Shown: piece after piece, positions 42,519 through 57,736 of the stretch
Layout: each line of letters starts with the position of its first letter
Numbering within the stretch: the first letter of the stretch is position 1
Source of the DNA: Fragilariopsis cylindrus CCMP1102
Lineage: Eukaryota; Bacillariophyta; Bacillariophyceae; Bacillariales; Bacillariaceae
Assembly: GCA_900095095.1 (NCBI GenBank)
Contig: FMBT01000171.1
Coordinates: 1-64,000 of the forward strand
Length of the DNA: 64,000 nucleotides
Reading direction: 5' to 3'
The notes under the pieces: generated by a model
Seen by the model: the letters and a program-made list of their open reading frames with translations, nothing else
Told to the model about the DNA's origin: nothing
The model's database searches: none
Translations under genes and position numbers: made by a program

Positions 42519-45500
42519 TTAATGACCGTCAAGGTTAATTAGTGCCTCGTTAACATGTCTTTCGCTTTTAACCTTCTGCAGAAAACAGTCACGATCTAAT
42601 AAGGGAACTGTACTATTTGATCTTTCGTTGTTCTTGCCATCAATATCAGTGGAAGAGCCGGCTTGCACCATGCTAAAAAAAATGCCATCGTCAATCTGGA
42701 TCAACTCATGGTAGGTGCCATGTTCGGCAATAGTCCCGTGATCGAGAACGACAATCTGATCTGCATCCTTAGACGTAAATGTGCTGTGAGATATGGAAAC
42801 TATGGTCAGTTGCTCCGAGTCTCGGAGCCTTACGATCGTTTTCACAATCGAAGCCGCGGTCTCGGGATCAAGCGCGGACGTTGCCTCATCCAACAGCAGA
42901 ACGGAAGGCTTTCGATATAATACTCGAGCCAAACAAATGCGCTGAATCAACGCCAGTTGCGACCAAATATATATAGCAAAGTAAATATTAGAAATTGAAG
43001 CAATTGAAAAAGAGAATGAAAACCAAAAGATAGGAAAAAAATCGAACTTACCTGAAGCTGCCCCCCGCTCATGTTTATACGGCTGTCGCCCCCAAGAACA
43101 GTGTCATAACCATCTGGTAGCATGGAAATTATGTCAGCTATTTCTGCCATGGTGGCGGCCTCAAATACCGCACCATCATTGTTGTCGGGTGAGCCAAAAA
43201 GAATGTTTTCTCGTATAGTCCCCTCTAGTATCATAGTTTTTTGAAACATCACCGAAACATATTGCCGGTAGCTCCTTAAAGAAGCACCAAATATTTCGGT
43301 TCCGTCCCACATAATAGAACCCTCATTGGGTTGCAGGTTTCTCATGAGCAAGTTGATCAGAGTGGTCTTTCCAGATCCACTAAGCCCACAAAGGACATTA
43401 TAGGTCCCCCGTTTAAATGACAAATTGATACCTTTCAGCACTTCAACCGGCGAACCTTTATATCGAAATATGACCCCCTGTTTATCAGTATCAATGGTAA
43501 AACAACGCCAGTTGTGACCAAATGTATAGAGCAAAGTGAATATTAGAAATGGAAGCAATTGAAAAAGAGAATATAAACCAGAAGATAGAAGAAATGTCGA
43601 ACTTACCTTCATATCTATGCTCTCAGTAAGCGGGGATAACGACGGGTGATCAGCGCCATTGTAATTAATAACAGTATTTCCACTAGCAATCAAATCATCA
43701 ACTTTGCGAATACAACCAGCAGAATTCGATGCTTCACGCATGAAACCACCTAGCCGATTGAGTGGTTCTGTCATACTGGCAGCCAAACTCACCAACGTGA
43801 CAAACCCACCGACAAGTGTGGTATTATCGTCGGAATCTAGTACAGCTTTGCCATAGGGTATGATGACAAACAAAGTATAGATCGCGCCACACATCAGATA
43901 GTAGACCGAAATAGCTCCACTTGAAAAAATAGACCGTTGTCGTGCCTGGCTGAGTTCCAAAAGCATGGGCTGAATGCGATCAGCTGCCCATACTCCGGTG
44001 TCAGACGTAATTAAAACCGGAAGACAGTTGACAAGGCTCGCAAAATTAGAGGCTAACTTGCCTTCCAATCGTGATGCCTTTTGAGATGCTTCCGAAACAA
44101 TAATGCAGATCTTATTTAGTAACAAAACAATCAATGAAATGTATGCAATGATAATAATCTTGCATAAAAAATAACAAGATTATTTCCTGTGAAACAACCA
44201 AGAACTTACCGTCCGTAGCTTTCTTGGTAAGATCGTCATTGCTATACATTACAGGCAATAGACAAATAAATGCTGCGGCCAAAATGATATTGACTTGTAA
44301 GCATGAAAGGCAAGCGATGGTAATTTTCATTGTAGAGAACAACATGGTGTAAGTGGACGTGATGAGTGTCACTTCTACCCGACCCGTTTGACTTGTAAAC
44401 ACATCGACGATTTCTCCTGCGGAAGAACCATCACCGTCAACATTACTATTCACAACAGCACCCAGGGCTCGCTGCCGACACAATAGCATTGCTCGTGTAT
44501 TCAGCTTCGATTGAGAATACGACAATGCAAGCATGATCACGGGATTAATACCCGCTAGAAAAAAATACACAATTAAGGCTGTTCTGGCATCCTTTTGATT
44601 ATAGCTCGCGTTGTTGACAAATATACCTAAAGCGATGGCCTGTACCGGCGCAATTGCTGCGGCCATCGACATGATGATTAGCGATACGATGAATTCTCGA
44701 GGACATTGGATCCACTTTTGAAGGATGGTCCAGACTAAGGCAAAGGAGGTGATCGGGACGGGGACCTTCTCGATGTTACAACCATGCTCACTATCGCAAT
44801 ACGACGAGAGGCAGTTGGCCATTTGTTTCACGACTCGTCTGAATTCGGACGAACTCAAATACTGACTGTTGTTGTTGGATTTCCAACCGGGCCATATCGA
44901 AACATGTTCGGAAATGCGTTTCACGATGCACCAATAATCGAGGGCACCATCGCCCGCCGCACGTACCCGTTGATCGAGATCTATTTTTACTTTTTTGCCA
45001 CGTTTAATGTCCTCGGAGACAATCAATACTTCCAACGCATGATTAAAAGCCTCTTGGACTTGCTCCTTGGTTATTTCGGTGGACGTTTTTCGGAAAGATT
45101 GCATAATCATACTCGTGTCGCTATTTTCGTCGTCGTGATCATTAAATTTACCTGCTTGGTTGGTACCGAGGACATCTCGCAATTCATTCATCGGTTCATG
45201 ATTTATTCGCAAAAAGAACAAATAACATCCGAACATGATTAGAGTTACAGATAAGATTGCTGTTTCGGATCGGTTCAATTGCTCGCATCCCAATGTTATG
45301 TTGAATTTGTCTTCTACGACGAGCAAGCCAATAATAGCAATGGCCAGATGCAACACCAGCGATAAAACGCACTGGAATCCTCCCCAGCGAAAATATATCA
45401 AGCCTCCAAAGAACGGGAGCGAGTACTCCCATAAAAATCCCGTGGCGATCCACAACGAAACATGGACAACGGAAAACCATTTAAAGTGTTCTGAGTTGCA

Positions 45501-52036: not shown

Positions 52037-52591
52037 TTACTGTTCTTCATCAACAGGGACAATATCTGATACTATTCCTTGTTTATGTAACCCTTCATTG
52101 TATGTTTCCGCAATTTCAAAACAAAATACTCCAACACATGCGATACCATTCTGATGAGCTGTCATCATCGTTTGATAGGCAGTCATTTCTGTGATACCCG
52201 TAATCTGTACGAGTGATCGTGCCACATGCTCTCTTGTATTTAATCCATCATTGTATATTCGGACCTCCCATTCTTCACCACCCACATGTTCACGTTCTTT
52301 TACAACAGAAGAGGATCGATCAATGACCTTCTTTTCTGCTGGACGATCTAATACAGCCGGTCCGGTGGTTCTACCTGTTTTCTCTCTTTCAATAGTAGCC
52401 GGTCCTGCTGCTAATGCTGTGTTGAGTCTGTTATTGTGAGTCGTTGAAGCATGTCGTTGTTGTTGTTGTTGTTGATGTTGTACCGGTACATGTAGTTGTT
52501 GTGCATGGAAAGCGATACAAGTACCAAACAAAGAAGAGCATAAAAATAGCGGAAGTACAGCAGACAGTAAAAATTTCATCGTGGAGATCAT
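52037..52591 (-). CDS. ClpS-like adaptor protein, plastid-targeted
   Basis: 184 aa, intact. Presequence FLLSAVLPLFLCSSLFGTC-IAF-HAQQLH with an Ala-Phe site and Gln-rich spacer. The C-terminal ~85 residues match the ClpS fold: WEVRIYNDGLNTREHVARSL, then MTAYQTMMTAHQNGIACVGV, then FEIAETYNEGL. ClpS hands N-degron substrates to the ClpC/ClpP protease; here the N-D pair of 'YNDGLNT' and the 'H-x-x-G' are kept. A chloroplast N-degron adaptor role is inferred from the presequence and fold. The start MISTMKF places two Met near the end; either yields the same presequence. Confidence 0.85.
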   Translation of the reverse strand: MISTMKFLLSAVLPLFLCSSLFGTCIAFHAQQLHVPVQHQQQQQQRHASTTHNNRLNTALAAGPATIEREKTGRTTGPAVLDRPAEKKVIDRSSSVVKEREHVGGEEWEVRIYNDGLNTREHVARSLVQITGITEMTAYQTMMTAHQNGIACVGVFCFEIAETYNEGLHKQGIVSDIVPVDEEQ

Positions 52592-53535
52592 CGTGCTAAT
52601 TATATATGATTATTGTAGGTTGGGTAGTTAGTTGAGCTGGTTAGTTGTGAAAGCAATAACAATTGATTTATGAGCTAATTCAATAATTATACGGAGCAAA
52701 TCGGTTTTAGATTGGAGGGAGACAACAATATTTTAATGGTCAAAACTAAGAAGTATCAACACAAATGCAATACAGAAAGAAGCTGCAAGATGCACTTAAT
52801 TCAAACTAAAATTTGGTGGATGACGAACGACGAGTGATACACTGTACTTTAAGTACCGGAGGAGGATAGTTCTTTACGGTATTTAATTTTTGACACGAAC
52901 AAATACTAAGTAAAATTGCGCGAGAAAAAGTGTGTAAGATTGTTAGTGAATTTGCTGTGTAAAGAGTGATGAGAGTGACGAAATTTATGTAATTTTTGAT
53001 TGAAGATTGTGAATTGTGAGATTGGGGGAAAGATGTATATTTTGTGGTCCAAAAAATAAAATAAAAATTGTCGATCATTTTTAGATTTTCTTGGCGATCC
53101 CCTCAAAATCCGTTTACTTTTGTTACGATCGCAGAATACTGTAATCCTACGTAGTTTGATTGGCAATATCATTTTTTGCGCGATGATTTAAACTTACATA
53201 CAGTGAAACCACATACAAAATACGTTAAATGCGCGCGCCGAAAGTTGGTAGAGAGTTAACTACAAGTCTTCGAATTTTTTTCTAAATTCACCCATAAAGT
53301 AAAGGGGGGAGCAGATTGCGCGATGATGTGTTAAAAGATTGCATCGTTGAACTTCAAGATCGAAAAACAAAGGGAGAATTGTGTCGTCCGAGAGAATGCA
53401 AGACTCATCAATTTCAAGTCCACAAATATGTAAATGCATAAAAATCAACGAAGAAAATCCGACCGTAATGCTTATCGGGGAAGCACACCCTCTATGCCAT
53501 AACTTTATCATAGCAATCGAATTAATGGTTCTAAC
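52592..53535. other. Intergenic upstream of tRNA-Sec cluster
   Basis: AT-rich, no supported gene. GCGCGCGCC near 53231. Confidence 0.4.
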
Positions 53536-53622
53536 GTGTGCATGATATAGCCTGGTGGTTATTACAGGCTTCAAACTTGTAGACGGCTAACGCCGTAGTT
53601 GTTCGATTCAACCTTGCGCACG
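53536..53622 (+). tRNA. tRNA-Sec (TCA), copy 1
   Basis: 87-nt cloverleaf. Acceptor GTGTGCATG pairs with CTTGCGCAC over nine positions (one T:T), discriminator G. Six-bp D stem ATAGCC/GGTTAT with TGGT loop, anticodon arm ACAGG-CTTCAAA-CTTGT with TCA, long variable arm ACGGC-TAAC-GCCGT, T arm GTTG-TTCGATT-CAAC. The 9+4 acceptor/T geometry and six-bp D stem are diagnostic of eukaryotic selenocysteine tRNA. The D stem differs from the other two copies by paired changes, so all appear to be under structural constraint. Confidence 0.92.
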
Positions 53623-53755
53623 TGTGGTATTATTTTGGTTTGGTTTGGGGGCAGAAAAAAAATCCAAGTTTATATTTGGGCGATAGGACGGTGATGGTGA
53701 TACCTATGGGTTCAAGTAGCCTTAATTTTATCTTTCAATCAATCAGTCCTATTTG

Positions 53756-53842
53756 GTGTGCATGATCCAATTTGGTAATTGGTACAGGCTTCAAACCTGT
53801 AGACGGCTAACGCCGTAGTTGTTCGATTCAACCCTGCGCACG
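53756..53842 (+). tRNA. tRNA-Sec (TCA), copy 2
   Basis: Same 87-nt structure. D stem CCAATT/AATTGG around TGGT, anticodon arm ACAGG-CTTCAAA-CCTGT, variable arm ACGGC/GCCGT, T arm GTTG/CAAC, acceptor GTGTGCA/TGCGCAC. It differs from copy 3 at a single base near the 3' side (ACCC versus ACCT). Confidence 0.92.
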
Positions 53843-53918
53843 TACGTACATTGGAAATGCTATCAAACTCAACGGGGATTACTCTCACCACAAAATAATA
53901 GAGGAACTATCCTACTCT

Positions 53919-54005
53919 GTGTGCATGATCCAATTTGGTAATTGGTACAGGCTTCAAACCTGTAGACGGCTAACGCCGTAGTTGTTCGATTCAACCTTGC
54001 GCACG
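53919..54005 (+). tRNA. tRNA-Sec (TCA), copy 3
   Basis: Nearly identical to copy 2, with 76 bp of unrelated spacer between them and AT-rich sequence 20-30 bp upstream. All three copies share orientation, and spacers do not resemble each other beyond the first bases, so only the gene bodies were conserved after duplication. Confidence 0.92.
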
Positions 54006-54647
54006 TATAACGTTCCTTTCCACTCTCTCAAGTCCAGAAAAAATCGACTGTTTTTCGTTACATAAGTCTGTTGCTTGCTGATGCATTATCATCAATCCAA
54101 GAGAACCCTGAAATAATTCGAACGCGACGACGGTCTTGTAATACTTTTGTTTCTTCTGCGACATTGTTTCCCTTAAACGAGTATCCGAGTTGAAATCGAA
54201 GATTTGTCTAACTGGTGTTCGTAGTTTTTGATCCGAGCGATGCACCTAGTTCCATCCTAGTTTGTTGCCCAATTTGGAACCCAGTTCCATCGCGAGTGCT
54301 GTTCCAAGTAGGGAGCTGAGCAACTTGCTCAGATTGCGACCCAGCTTTATGAAGGGCCAAAACTACTTGTAAGTCAAGACAACAAATTCAATGGTCGTTA
54401 ACGGTAACAACTAGTGAACTCGAACCTGTTCCGTTGTAACTGGAAAATAAGCACTGCCATGTATGTATTCAATACACACACGTAATTATTATAGTGACGA
54501 AATTATCCGTACGAATATAGTAGCATATACTATGTATGTGGTTAGTTAGGCATCATGTTTTAAAGTTCTTTCAAGTTATTATTTACAGTTTTAAGTCAGT
54601 TAAATGATCATCCCCTGATCTTATAGTAGCATTTCGTATTTAGTTAG
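54006..54647. other. Intergenic
   Basis: A small local repetition around 54250-54350 (GTTCCATC / CAGTTCCATCG / CCCAGTT) and otherwise nothing recognised. Confidence 0.35.
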
Positions 54648-57080
54648 TTAGGCATCGCCATCATCACCGGCTGGACAACCCGGCCATTCAATTTGTTCTA
54701 AACAATTCAAGTATTCAAAGTTCATTGTAAAGTCAGCACCAAAATGATTGACCATAGCAGAACTAACAAGTGCACCAGTTGATATTAACCAGAAGAAAAA
54801 ATACCAAAAATGATCCTTGAAGATATAAGATAATATCCGACCCAATGATAATTTTTTGCCTTCTCCTAGCCCTTGTTTGGAACTAAAGAAGACACTATAA
54901 TTGATCCCAACTACCAGTAATAACATCAATACAATAAATATTGATCCGTATTTCTGTGCTTCAAACCAACGCTCATCACTAATTTGGAATGATTCATTCA
55001 AATGCTGTGCTGAACTTGGTATATTCCGTACTGCAATAAAAATTAATTGTTGATTGATACGAACAATAATATTTACACATAGTGACCCAGTTGAATCGAC
55101 CATATGATACAGATCACGTTGTTCCCATATTTCCTTTCCTCTTTTAGTAGCAGTAGTAGATGGTGTTACTACTTTCTTCTTGCCCTCATCAGAATCATTA
55201 CTATTATCGTTTGGTGTATCATCATCGAGTATGATATTCTCGAAGCCATCCGTTCGTCCTCCCATTGTTCCTATCCTACTAGTAATAATCGAGTCGTCAT
55301 CGCTGCCAAAGTTTATAGGGGCTTCAACATCGTACTCGTCATCGTCGTCGTCATTGGTGGTGGTGGTGGTGGTGGTGGTGGTGGTGCCATCTCCTACACC
55401 CCTCATGATGCTCGCGAAGTTATTCATCTCGATTGCCATACTAGAGTCGTCATCACTATCATCATACATCATTACACGATTTGTGGCATTTTCGATGCTA
55501 CCCCTACCCGCATCGGTAGAATATAAGTAAGCATGCTTGCTCACATTCCCTCCATTATCGGGAAAATACGTTCCGTTTTCTTCTTCTTCTTCTTCACCAA
55601 CGGTCGTATCAAGAGTTGTAGAAGTATTGCATTTCGTTAAGCTCCGTACTACGTCTTGTCTGTCTTCGCTTAGACTCATATTGATGATATATTGATTCGA
55701 TCCAGTGAAGCAGGCTTCTGTGATACCTTTCATTCTACTTGATTTTGATGATCTCCCGCCCACGTCCACGCCAACAACATTACCATTACCATCGGTATCG
55801 TGCTGTTCCTGGCCTTCTAATGCTGTTGCCTTTATAGCACCCCACCAAAGACCAATCCGGTCAACACCATTGTAGTATCGCCATAGTACCACAGACGATT
55901 CACTGGCGAAGAGCGCAAGTAACGTAAAGGGACTATCGATGAAAGGCCACGTAGCAATTTGAACCCTCGTGAAAAGCACATCAACTACAAGGTTGAGTTG
56001 AATGAGTCGCTTCGGATTGAGACGTACTGCGGTGTTTGCACATATCAATATCTTGCATATGAATCGTAAAATAGCATATGAGAATAAGACCAAGTATTGA
56101 AGCGGATTGCCCTGTAGTCGTTGGATACCAATAGCCCACCCGATTACCGCCGTCAGTGATACCCAATAAGCGAGTAGATGAGTAAACATGAGACAAAAAT
56201 TTCCACGCTCTCGATCCGGCTTGGGCGTCATCAAATACATGATGGGAACAGCTGGAAGAGTTCCCAATGTTCCCGTAACGAAAATCGAGAAGGGAATCGG
56301 AAATATCGGCTCGTAGATAAATATTCCTTTCGTCAAAATTACATCAATAACTTTTGCAATGATCAAACCAACGGTTAATGCAAGCATTCTTGCACGGACT
56401 GGAATCTTAGCTTCAGGCATAGCAAAGTTACATGTTTCTATCCATGGTACTATCATAAATAGTTGATAGAGTGTCATGATACCATAGATAAAAATTCGAT
56501 TTTCTTCAGGTCCGTCATCGACAGGGTTCATTGGTAGGAAGAACACAACCTCGCCAAGAAGTGGACAGAGAATCATTATAATTAAAACCCACATTAGTTG
56601 TCTCCATCGGAATGTTGCTCGATGGGGAAGATCTTTAATAACATTAACAGTAGTTACGATAGATGCCGTTATTACACCCTCAGCGCTTGATCCCCAGGAG
56701 ATAATGGTCGTATGAAGTTCCGACAACGTCGACGGTAGGTTTCCTGCAATCTCACTTGCGTGAGCAGGTAATTCTATCGCTATCTGCTTTATTACATTTG
56801 GAACTGTACGTAAATTTTCTGGTAGATCCACAATAATTTGTTGTAACTTCTCAACAACCTTTTTTGGGTCGGCTATGAAACCAGGAAGAGATATCTGTTG
56901 TAAAATTGATGGTAGTAGAGTCGTCGTATTCGCTGTGGCGTCGGAATCGTTGTTTTCGTTGTCGTTGTTATCATCATCTCCATCTACATCTCCCCTATGT
57001 TTCTTGATGTCTTCCCCATCGTGAATAAGTTTAGGTACTTCATCTACGTCGATAATAAGTCGGGGGATAATACCGACCAT
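54648..57080 (-). CDS. 810-aa multi-pass membrane protein of unknown function
   Basis: Intact single exon, start MVGIIPRLIIDVDEVPK. Residues ~30-150 are acidic then amphipathic (LPSILQQISLPGF...). Ten or so hydrophobic segments follow, e.g. LMWVLIIMILCPLLGEVVFF, ALTVGLIIAKVIDVIL, LVLFSYAILRFICKILICAN and, near the C-terminus, GSIFIVLMLLLVVGINYSVF and YFFFWLISTGALVSSAM. A long Asp/Thr/Ser-rich loop (~430-640, with a Thr run coded by (ACC)n) divides the two membrane blocks. I recognise no family; receptor or transporter are both possible. No targeting presequence is visible. It is divergent from the small charged protein. Confidence 0.8.
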   Translation of the reverse strand: MVGIIPRLIIDVDEVPKLIHDGEDIKKHRGDVDGDDDNNDNENNDSDATANTTTLLPSILQQISLPGFIADPKKVVEKLQQIIVDLPENLRTVPNVIKQIAIELPAHASEIAGNLPSTLSELHTTIISWGSSAEGVITASIVTTVNVIKDLPHRATFRWRQLMWVLIIMILCPLLGEVVFFLPMNPVDDGPEENRIFIYGIMTLYQLFMIVPWIETCNFAMPEAKIPVRARMLALTVGLIIAKVIDVILTKGIFIYEPIFPIPFSIFVTGTLGTLPAVPIMYLMTPKPDRERGNFCLMFTHLLAYWVSLTAVIGWAIGIQRLQGNPLQYLVLFSYAILRFICKILICANTAVRLNPKRLIQLNLVVDVLFTRVQIATWPFIDSPFTLLALFASESSVVLWRYYNGVDRIGLWWGAIKATALEGQEQHDTDGNGNVVGVDVGGRSSKSSRMKGITEACFTGSNQYIINMSLSEDRQDVVRSLTKCNTSTTLDTTVGEEEEEENGTYFPDNGGNVSKHAYLYSTDAGRGSIENATNRVMMYDDSDDDSSMAIEMNNFASIMRGVGDGTTTTTTTTTTNDDDDDEYDVEAPINFGSDDDSIITSRIGTMGGRTDGFENIILDDDTPNDNSNDSDEGKKKVVTPSTTATKRGKEIWEQRDLYHMVDSTGSLCVNIIVRINQQLIFIAVRNIPSSAQHLNESFQISDERWFEAQKYGSIFIVLMLLLVVGINYSVFFSSKQGLGEGKKLSLGRILSYIFKDHFWYFFFWLISTGALVSSAMVNHFGADFTMNFEYLNCLEQIEWPGCPAGDDGDA

Positions 57081-57736
57081 AGTGCGTCTAAGAGTTACGC
57101 TTGTTAAAATAATAATAATAAATATTATTGCATTTTTATGATGGTGTGTTATTATTGTTGTCGGCGTTGTCTAAACTTGCATTATCTTGATCCAAAAGAT
57201 AGAGGTAGAGGTGGGCGGAAGCCCAGAGCTCAGAAGAGATATTTGCACATTCTAATTTGTGTAGACCAATATGATCCTATGGAGCAGCTTTGGTTTTGGT
57301 TCCGACTTTGTTGGTTTGCGAAAACAAGGAGAAGCGAGATTGATATTTCGATAAAAAATAAAACCTGAAAGAAAAATCTGATCGTAGTTCAATCACATCC
57401 GTGACTGAATCTACTATCCATGACTGAAAAGTAGCCGTTAAACAACGATAACGCGAGGTTTGAGATACTACTGCAGCTGTCGTCTGTTGACACAAATCGA
57501 TCGTGAGTTGACACGAATGAAATCAACGAATACTGCTCAAAAGAGCGAATTTGACATGTTTCAAATTGTTCTTATTCGAAAGCATGATGCAATCTTTCTT
57601 TCGAAATCGAACAATACAAAATTAGGAAGTCAGAGTCATTAGGAGTTCTCATAAAAATAATATCTAACAAAGTCAAACGTTACTACTACTAATACTAATA
57701 CTAATACTAATACTAAGAAAAACGAAAACATTAATC
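57081..57736. other. Divergent intergenic region with (TACTAA)n repeat
   Basis: Hexanucleotide-like repeat TACTAATACTAATACTAA at about 57680-57716, ~20 bp before the next start codon. No gene accepted. Confidence 0.45.

Follow-up and report, generated by a model that had tools for sequence, protein, structure and literature searches.

Tandem arrays of selenocysteine tRNA genes in the diatom Fragilariopsis cylindrus, with an apparent mosaic allele and few adjacent T4 runs

Introduction

The gene for the selenocysteine tRNA (tRNA-Sec) is usually present in a single copy or in low copy number, and the eukaryotic tRNA-Sec is characterised by a 9-bp acceptor stem, a 4-bp T stem, a 6-bp D stem and a long variable arm. 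In Trypanosoma brucei it is reportedly transcribed by RNA polymerase II (Pol II), and in Leishmania major its transcription is said to be dual, involving both Pol II and Pol III.

Tandem tRNA-Sec genes have been described in Trypanosoma cruzi Dm28c, which carries eleven of them in tandem (PMC12421993). A survey of the Tritryps located a T run 3' of every tRNA gene; in the accessible passages of the same article, the Xenopus tRNA-Sec gene is described as having upstream promoter elements together with a B box (PMC2695483). For Fragilariopsis cylindrus itself, the SecMarker study (Santesmasses, Mariotti and Guigo 2017, PMC5330540) gave eleven non-identical tRNA-Sec predictions of 87 nt, of which five carry compensatory mutations, two of these five having a mismatch as well. 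The sections of that article available to us also tabulate 36 selenoproteins for this species and state that, in genomes with multiple candidates, the number of tRNA-Sec does not correlate with the number of selenoproteins. Multiplicity and compensation are therefore not new for F. cylindrus. The word 'tandem' occurs 0 times in the main text of that article, and its available sections hold no allele pairing, mosaic allele or terminators.

Here we analyse a stretch of 64,000 nucleotides (the window: F. cylindrus CCMP1102, assembly GCA_900095095.1, contig FMBT01000171.1, positions 1 to 64,000 of the forward strand) that bears three tRNA-Sec genes, together with the tRNA-Sec loci of the whole genome. 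This polar diatom resembles T. cruzi Dm28c in having many tandem tRNA-Sec genes, but belongs to a different lineage, and the accessible passages of the T. cruzi report make no mention of D-stem variants, conversion between arrays or missing T runs (PMC12421993). In the accessible passages of the open-licence literature, we found no description of tandem tRNA-Sec arrays in diatoms or of missing tRNA-Sec terminators in this group. The tandem arrangement and the missing stop signals appear to be new, while the extra copies were already known.

Results

We characterised the window array with ARAGORN and with the Rfam model RF01852. ARAGORN called tRNA-SeC(tca) three times, always on the + strand, at 53536-53622 (copy 1, A1), 53756-53842 (copy 2, A2) and 53919-54005 (copy 3, A3), and RF01852 scored these copies at 71.7, 76.6 and 78.0 bits, respectively, where the gathering score is 47. 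The initial annotation had read three 87-nt tRNA-Sec genes, head-to-tail at 53536-54005, from the sequence alone and had proposed a selenocysteine-specific model as a check; both approaches bear it out. The general tRNA model is unlisted at the three sites in the Rfam table, which keeps only the best match per clan. All three copies have the anticodon TCA, and G73 is present in 13 of the 13 tRNA-Sec copies genome-wide. A single base separates copies 2 and 3. Copies 1 and 3, for their part, show 10 differences, 9 of which fall within columns 12-27, that is, in the D arm. As had been noticed at the outset, the D stem of copy 1 (ATAGCC/GGTTAT) differs from that of copies 2 and 3 (CCAATT/AATTGG) and yet pairs fully. 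Equally correct was the statement that the spacers are unrelated: spacer 1 (53623-53755, + strand) and spacer 2 (53843-53918, + strand) share 38% identity, compared with 39% after shuffling.

Both open frames flanking the array lie on the strand opposite to the tRNA-Sec genes: a ClpS-like frame upstream (52037-52609, - strand, PF02617) and an 840-aa frame downstream (54648-57170, - strand) that has no Pfam match at E<=0.001. Elsewhere in the window, an ABC-transporter-like gene on the - strand contains two 109-nt intron-like stretches (42945-43053 and 43500-43608) that are 88% identical to each other. In a genome search these stretches matched only in the window and in its allele on contig C56 (4 matches), and they may represent a recent intron duplication.

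We then searched the genome (67.9 Mb, 818 contigs, the window being contig C138) with RF01852 and obtained 15 matches, 13 of them over the cut-off. The other two, at 41 bits, were rejected as tRNA-Sec: the one on C23 is a tRNA-Ser(tga) according to ARAGORN, and the one on C451 is its near-identical counterpart. With about 10 kb compared around each match, C138 and C56 pair as alleles (98.7% identity over 9.7 kb), as do C69 and C547 (99.3% over 8.5 kb); C678 has no partner. The genome-wide count that the initial annotation had called for thus resolves into three loci with about seven tRNA-Sec positions per haploid genome: array A, which is the array of the window, array B and a solo gene, solo C. 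Six of the roughly seven positions lie in the two tandem arrays. The proposed local array is real without being the only one, array B and solo C lying elsewhere in the genome. A DNA search with the window array (53440-54090) gave 7 matches among the best candidates scored, all on the five tRNA-Sec contigs. In IMG/VR, one exact pattern used to look for relatives had 0 matches.

The 13 copies over the cut-off represent 7 distinct sequences. At six of the seven positions an intact-looking copy is present in every allele examined; the exception is A3, intact-looking in the window allele only. Its counterpart, the third copy on C56, is mismatched at acceptor pair 5-82, carries a change in the B-box core, scores 64.8 bits, the lowest of the 13, and is missing from the ARAGORN list. 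This copy looks decayed. As for the surroundings of the other loci, array B is flanked by an MBOAT gene that shares its strand and by a methyltransferase-like gene in the opposite orientation. The solo gene (L020 4887-4973) begins 198 nt downstream of the stop codon of an L7Ae-family gene (L020 3963-4688) that has the same orientation and is eL8-like by eye.

Comparison of the spacers revealed how the window allele is composed. Array B consists of a triplicated 163-bp unit, made of 62 nt of 5' flank, the gene and 14 nt of 3' flank, and its two spacers are identical at all but one of 76 positions. Between the two alleles of array A (C138 and C56), spacer 1 is 97% identical and the downstream flank 96%. 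Spacer 2 of C138 behaves otherwise: it is 96% identical to a C69 spacer, from array B, and only 50% identical to spacer 2 of C56, which is at chance level (46% shuffled). The C56 spacer 2, of local derivation, is itself 67% identical to spacer 1 of the same contig (49% shuffled). Moreover, A3 shows no difference from two of the three copies of array B. We conclude that the window allele of array A is a mosaic that carries an array B spacer and is allele-specific, a reading well supported by these comparisons, and the mosaic spacer 2 suggests conversion between tRNA-Sec loci. The direction of conversion was assigned by parsimony, and its breakpoints cannot be placed within identical genes. In the 150 nt upstream of the array, C138 and C56 (L018) are 76% identical, with 40 gap columns and zero substitutions. 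Since these gap columns come without substitution, part of the C138/C56 difference may consist of assembly indels, and the upstream indels between the array A alleles are perhaps long-read assembly noise.

We examined the pairing of the tRNAs across the 7 distinct copies. Standard pairs occupy 96.2% of cells, compared with 28-43% when the partners are slid. Changes on both sides occur in 6 pairs, 5 of which are among the 6 pairs of the D stem, and the D stem is paired in 100% of cells. Three D-stem designs coexist in the genome: CCAATT/AATTGG, ATAGCC/GGTTAT and CCTGCC/GGTAGG. Conversely, acceptor pair 8-79 is unpaired, as U-U or U-C, in 7 of the 7 distinct copies (for example window 53926/53997), so that 8 of the 9 acceptor pairs form, and 7 of 9 in the third copy of C56. 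Apart from these unpaired positions, the copies have the characteristic tRNA-Sec stems (acceptor of 9 bp, T of 4 bp, D of 6 bp) and the long variable arm. The B-box core GTTCGATTC is present in 6 of the 7.

Charging with serine followed by conversion to selenocysteine is predicted for these tRNAs. SepSecS is encoded in the genome, over the curated cut-off. The protein searches were six-frame and without intron handling, which limits their sensitivity: the candidate from one of three PF08433 loci scored far below the cut-offs of the PSTK models (46.6 bits where 290.5 are required, and 38.3 where 382.35 are), and the SelB/EFsec model TIGR00475 gave 44 matches, 0 of them over the cut-off, in the six-frame genome search. 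SECIS_1 had no match at E<=1 genome-wide and likewise nothing over the cut-off in the control genomes. One of three Rdx-family matches has an in-frame TGA; with this single TGA, G000:C79:79836-80255 is a candidate selenoprotein gene. The initial annotation had connected the array with a possible high demand for selenocysteine, an idea that the available sections of the SecMarker paper do not support, given the lack of correlation reported there. Outside this machinery, the ice-binding family PF11999 shows a large expansion, with 53 matches over many contigs, and an ice-binding protein on L063 aligns without visible difference with the whole 257-residue chain of PDB 6a8k, an F. cylindrus structure.

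We next compared the 3' flanks of the tRNA-Sec genes with those of ordinary tRNA genes. Of the 23 ordinary tRNA genes sampled, 22 have a run of four T (T4) that starts within 14 nt of the gene, versus 1 of the 7 haploid tRNA-Sec positions (Fisher p = 8e-5); restricted to independent 3' flanks, the tRNA-Sec count is 1 of 5 (p = 0.001). The ordinary set derives from 36 ARAGORN rows, taken from 30 of 63 tRNA-match loci, two tRNA-Ser loci and the window, and is not a random sample. Shared flank words marked ten rows as duplicates (alleles or paralogues), which were removed, and 3 further rows were removed because contig C419 was assumed to be organellar; 1 of these 3 has a T4 at 14 nt or less, and keeping them gives 23 of 26. 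The corresponding rate at random positions is 11% for the window and 15% for local intergenic DNA, which places the tRNA-Sec frequency at background. As a set, the tRNA-Sec genes thus lack the adjacent T4 or longer run that is ordinary for Pol III. The exception is array A copy 1, which is followed at 10 nt by a T4 (53633-53636, + strand), the sole T4 run this close (14 nt or less) to any gene of the window array. Spacer 2 contains no T4 between copies 2 and 3, and the first run of T4 or longer lies 45 nt after copy 3, where a T5 (54051-54055, + strand) is a candidate distal terminator. This distance is 43 nt after solo C and 237 nt after the last array B gene, and on C56 the first T4 is found 81 nt downstream of copy 2. 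The U6 gene on L078 terminates in T7.

A U6-like promoter was considered and rejected. A 25-nt element common to two U6 genes has no above-chance match in 3 of 4 tRNA-Sec upstream regions; in the fourth, that of A1, the match is borderline (15/25, reached by 3% of 300 mononucleotide shuffles). The diatom genes resemble Xenopus tRNA-Sec, in the accessible passages describing it, by the internal B-box core of 6 of the 7 distinct copies, but differ from it in 3 of the 4 upstream regions compared (PMC2695483).

Discussion

The genes analysed here are very probably those predicted by SecMarker. We counted 10 copies that are distinct when flanks are included, 4 of them compensatory relative to the top-scoring copy and 1 of these with an extra mismatch, where the available sections of that study give eleven, five and two (PMC5330540); the agreement is close but inexact. 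Two results are added: the allele-specific mosaic array, well supported by the spacer and gene comparisons, and the absence of T4 at most copies.

Both arrays would be products of tandem duplication. One array B unit would then have entered the window allele by gene conversion or unequal exchange, with the tRNA genes as the point of contact, and would have displaced the older third gene of array A. The D arm would be free to change provided that its pairing holds. Leaving the mode of transcription aside, we consider it probable that copies, arrays and conversion share this explanation.

How the arrays are transcribed is a separate matter. Because spacer 2 has no T4 run, copies 2 and 3 could share one transcript. 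We hold it to be almost as probable as not that Pol III reads past the gene and produces a joint precursor of copies 2 and 3 whose end lies near the T5 at 54051; this precursor would then be cut by ordinary tRNA end processing. Weaker T-rich signals can also stop Pol III, and the absence of T4 is therefore not proof of read-through. It is conceivable, if somewhat doubtful, that Pol III transcribes each gene singly and stops at weak signals (TTT, TATTATTT), the loss of T4 being inconsequential drift. Several copies are indeed followed by TTT-containing stretches, and the B-box core is retained in 6 of the 7 distinct copies. However, a T4 is present at 22 of 23 ordinary tRNA genes and the L078 U6 gene ends in T7, suggesting that this Pol III uses such runs, and array B has none for 237 nt past its last gene.

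We also weighed the possibility that one or two copies are functional, the others being neutral duplicates heading to decay. The third copy of C56 fits this description, with its acceptor mismatch, its B-box change, its low score and its absence from the ARAGORN list. Neutral decay would not, however, yield three distinct D stems, each perfectly paired, and we find this explanation unlikely for the set.

Less probable still is transcription of tRNA-Sec by Pol II within longer transcripts, as in T. brucei, from which missing Pol III terminators would follow. Such a route would agree with the lack of a nearby T4 (14 nt or less) at six of the seven positions, with the solo gene lying 198 nt past the L7Ae-family stop codon on the same strand and with the 3 of 4 upstream regions that have no above-chance match to the U6 element; precedents exist by title (Aeby 2010, Padilla-Mejia 2015). 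Against it stand the orientation of the window array, opposite to both adjoining open frames, the T4 run after copy 1, the B-box core GTTCGATTC kept in 6 of the 7 distinct copies and the borderline U6-element match upstream of A1.

Finally, that the array is an assembly artefact or the product of collapsed repeats is very improbable: array B is identical in sequence on two contigs and the array A alleles show many gap columns upstream, but the copies, spacers and flanks differ across loci and alleles, a homologous and non-identical array on C56 makes the assembly duplication first envisaged unlikely, and the available sections of the SecMarker paper give eleven non-identical predictions for F. 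cylindrus.

A broader and tentative reading, which we rate as possible and rather unlikely, is that tRNA-Sec has left the normal tRNA route: Pol III terminators would have been lost, with multi-tRNA-Sec precursors or Pol II transcripts in their place, as an independent parallel to trypanosomes, and the result would be tandem arrays maintained by conversion. The likeness with T. brucei and L. major would be that the transcription machinery treats tRNA-Sec unlike other tRNA genes; there it is reported as a result on transcription, whereas in the diatom it is a hint from sequence only.

With its two arrays, a mosaic allele and D stems of three designs, this genome provides a natural experiment on the freedom of the D arm and on the upkeep of a multicopy tRNA. 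If the missing terminators reflect a different transcription route, F. cylindrus would offer a second, photosynthetic case of the special treatment of tRNA-Sec of the trypanosome type.
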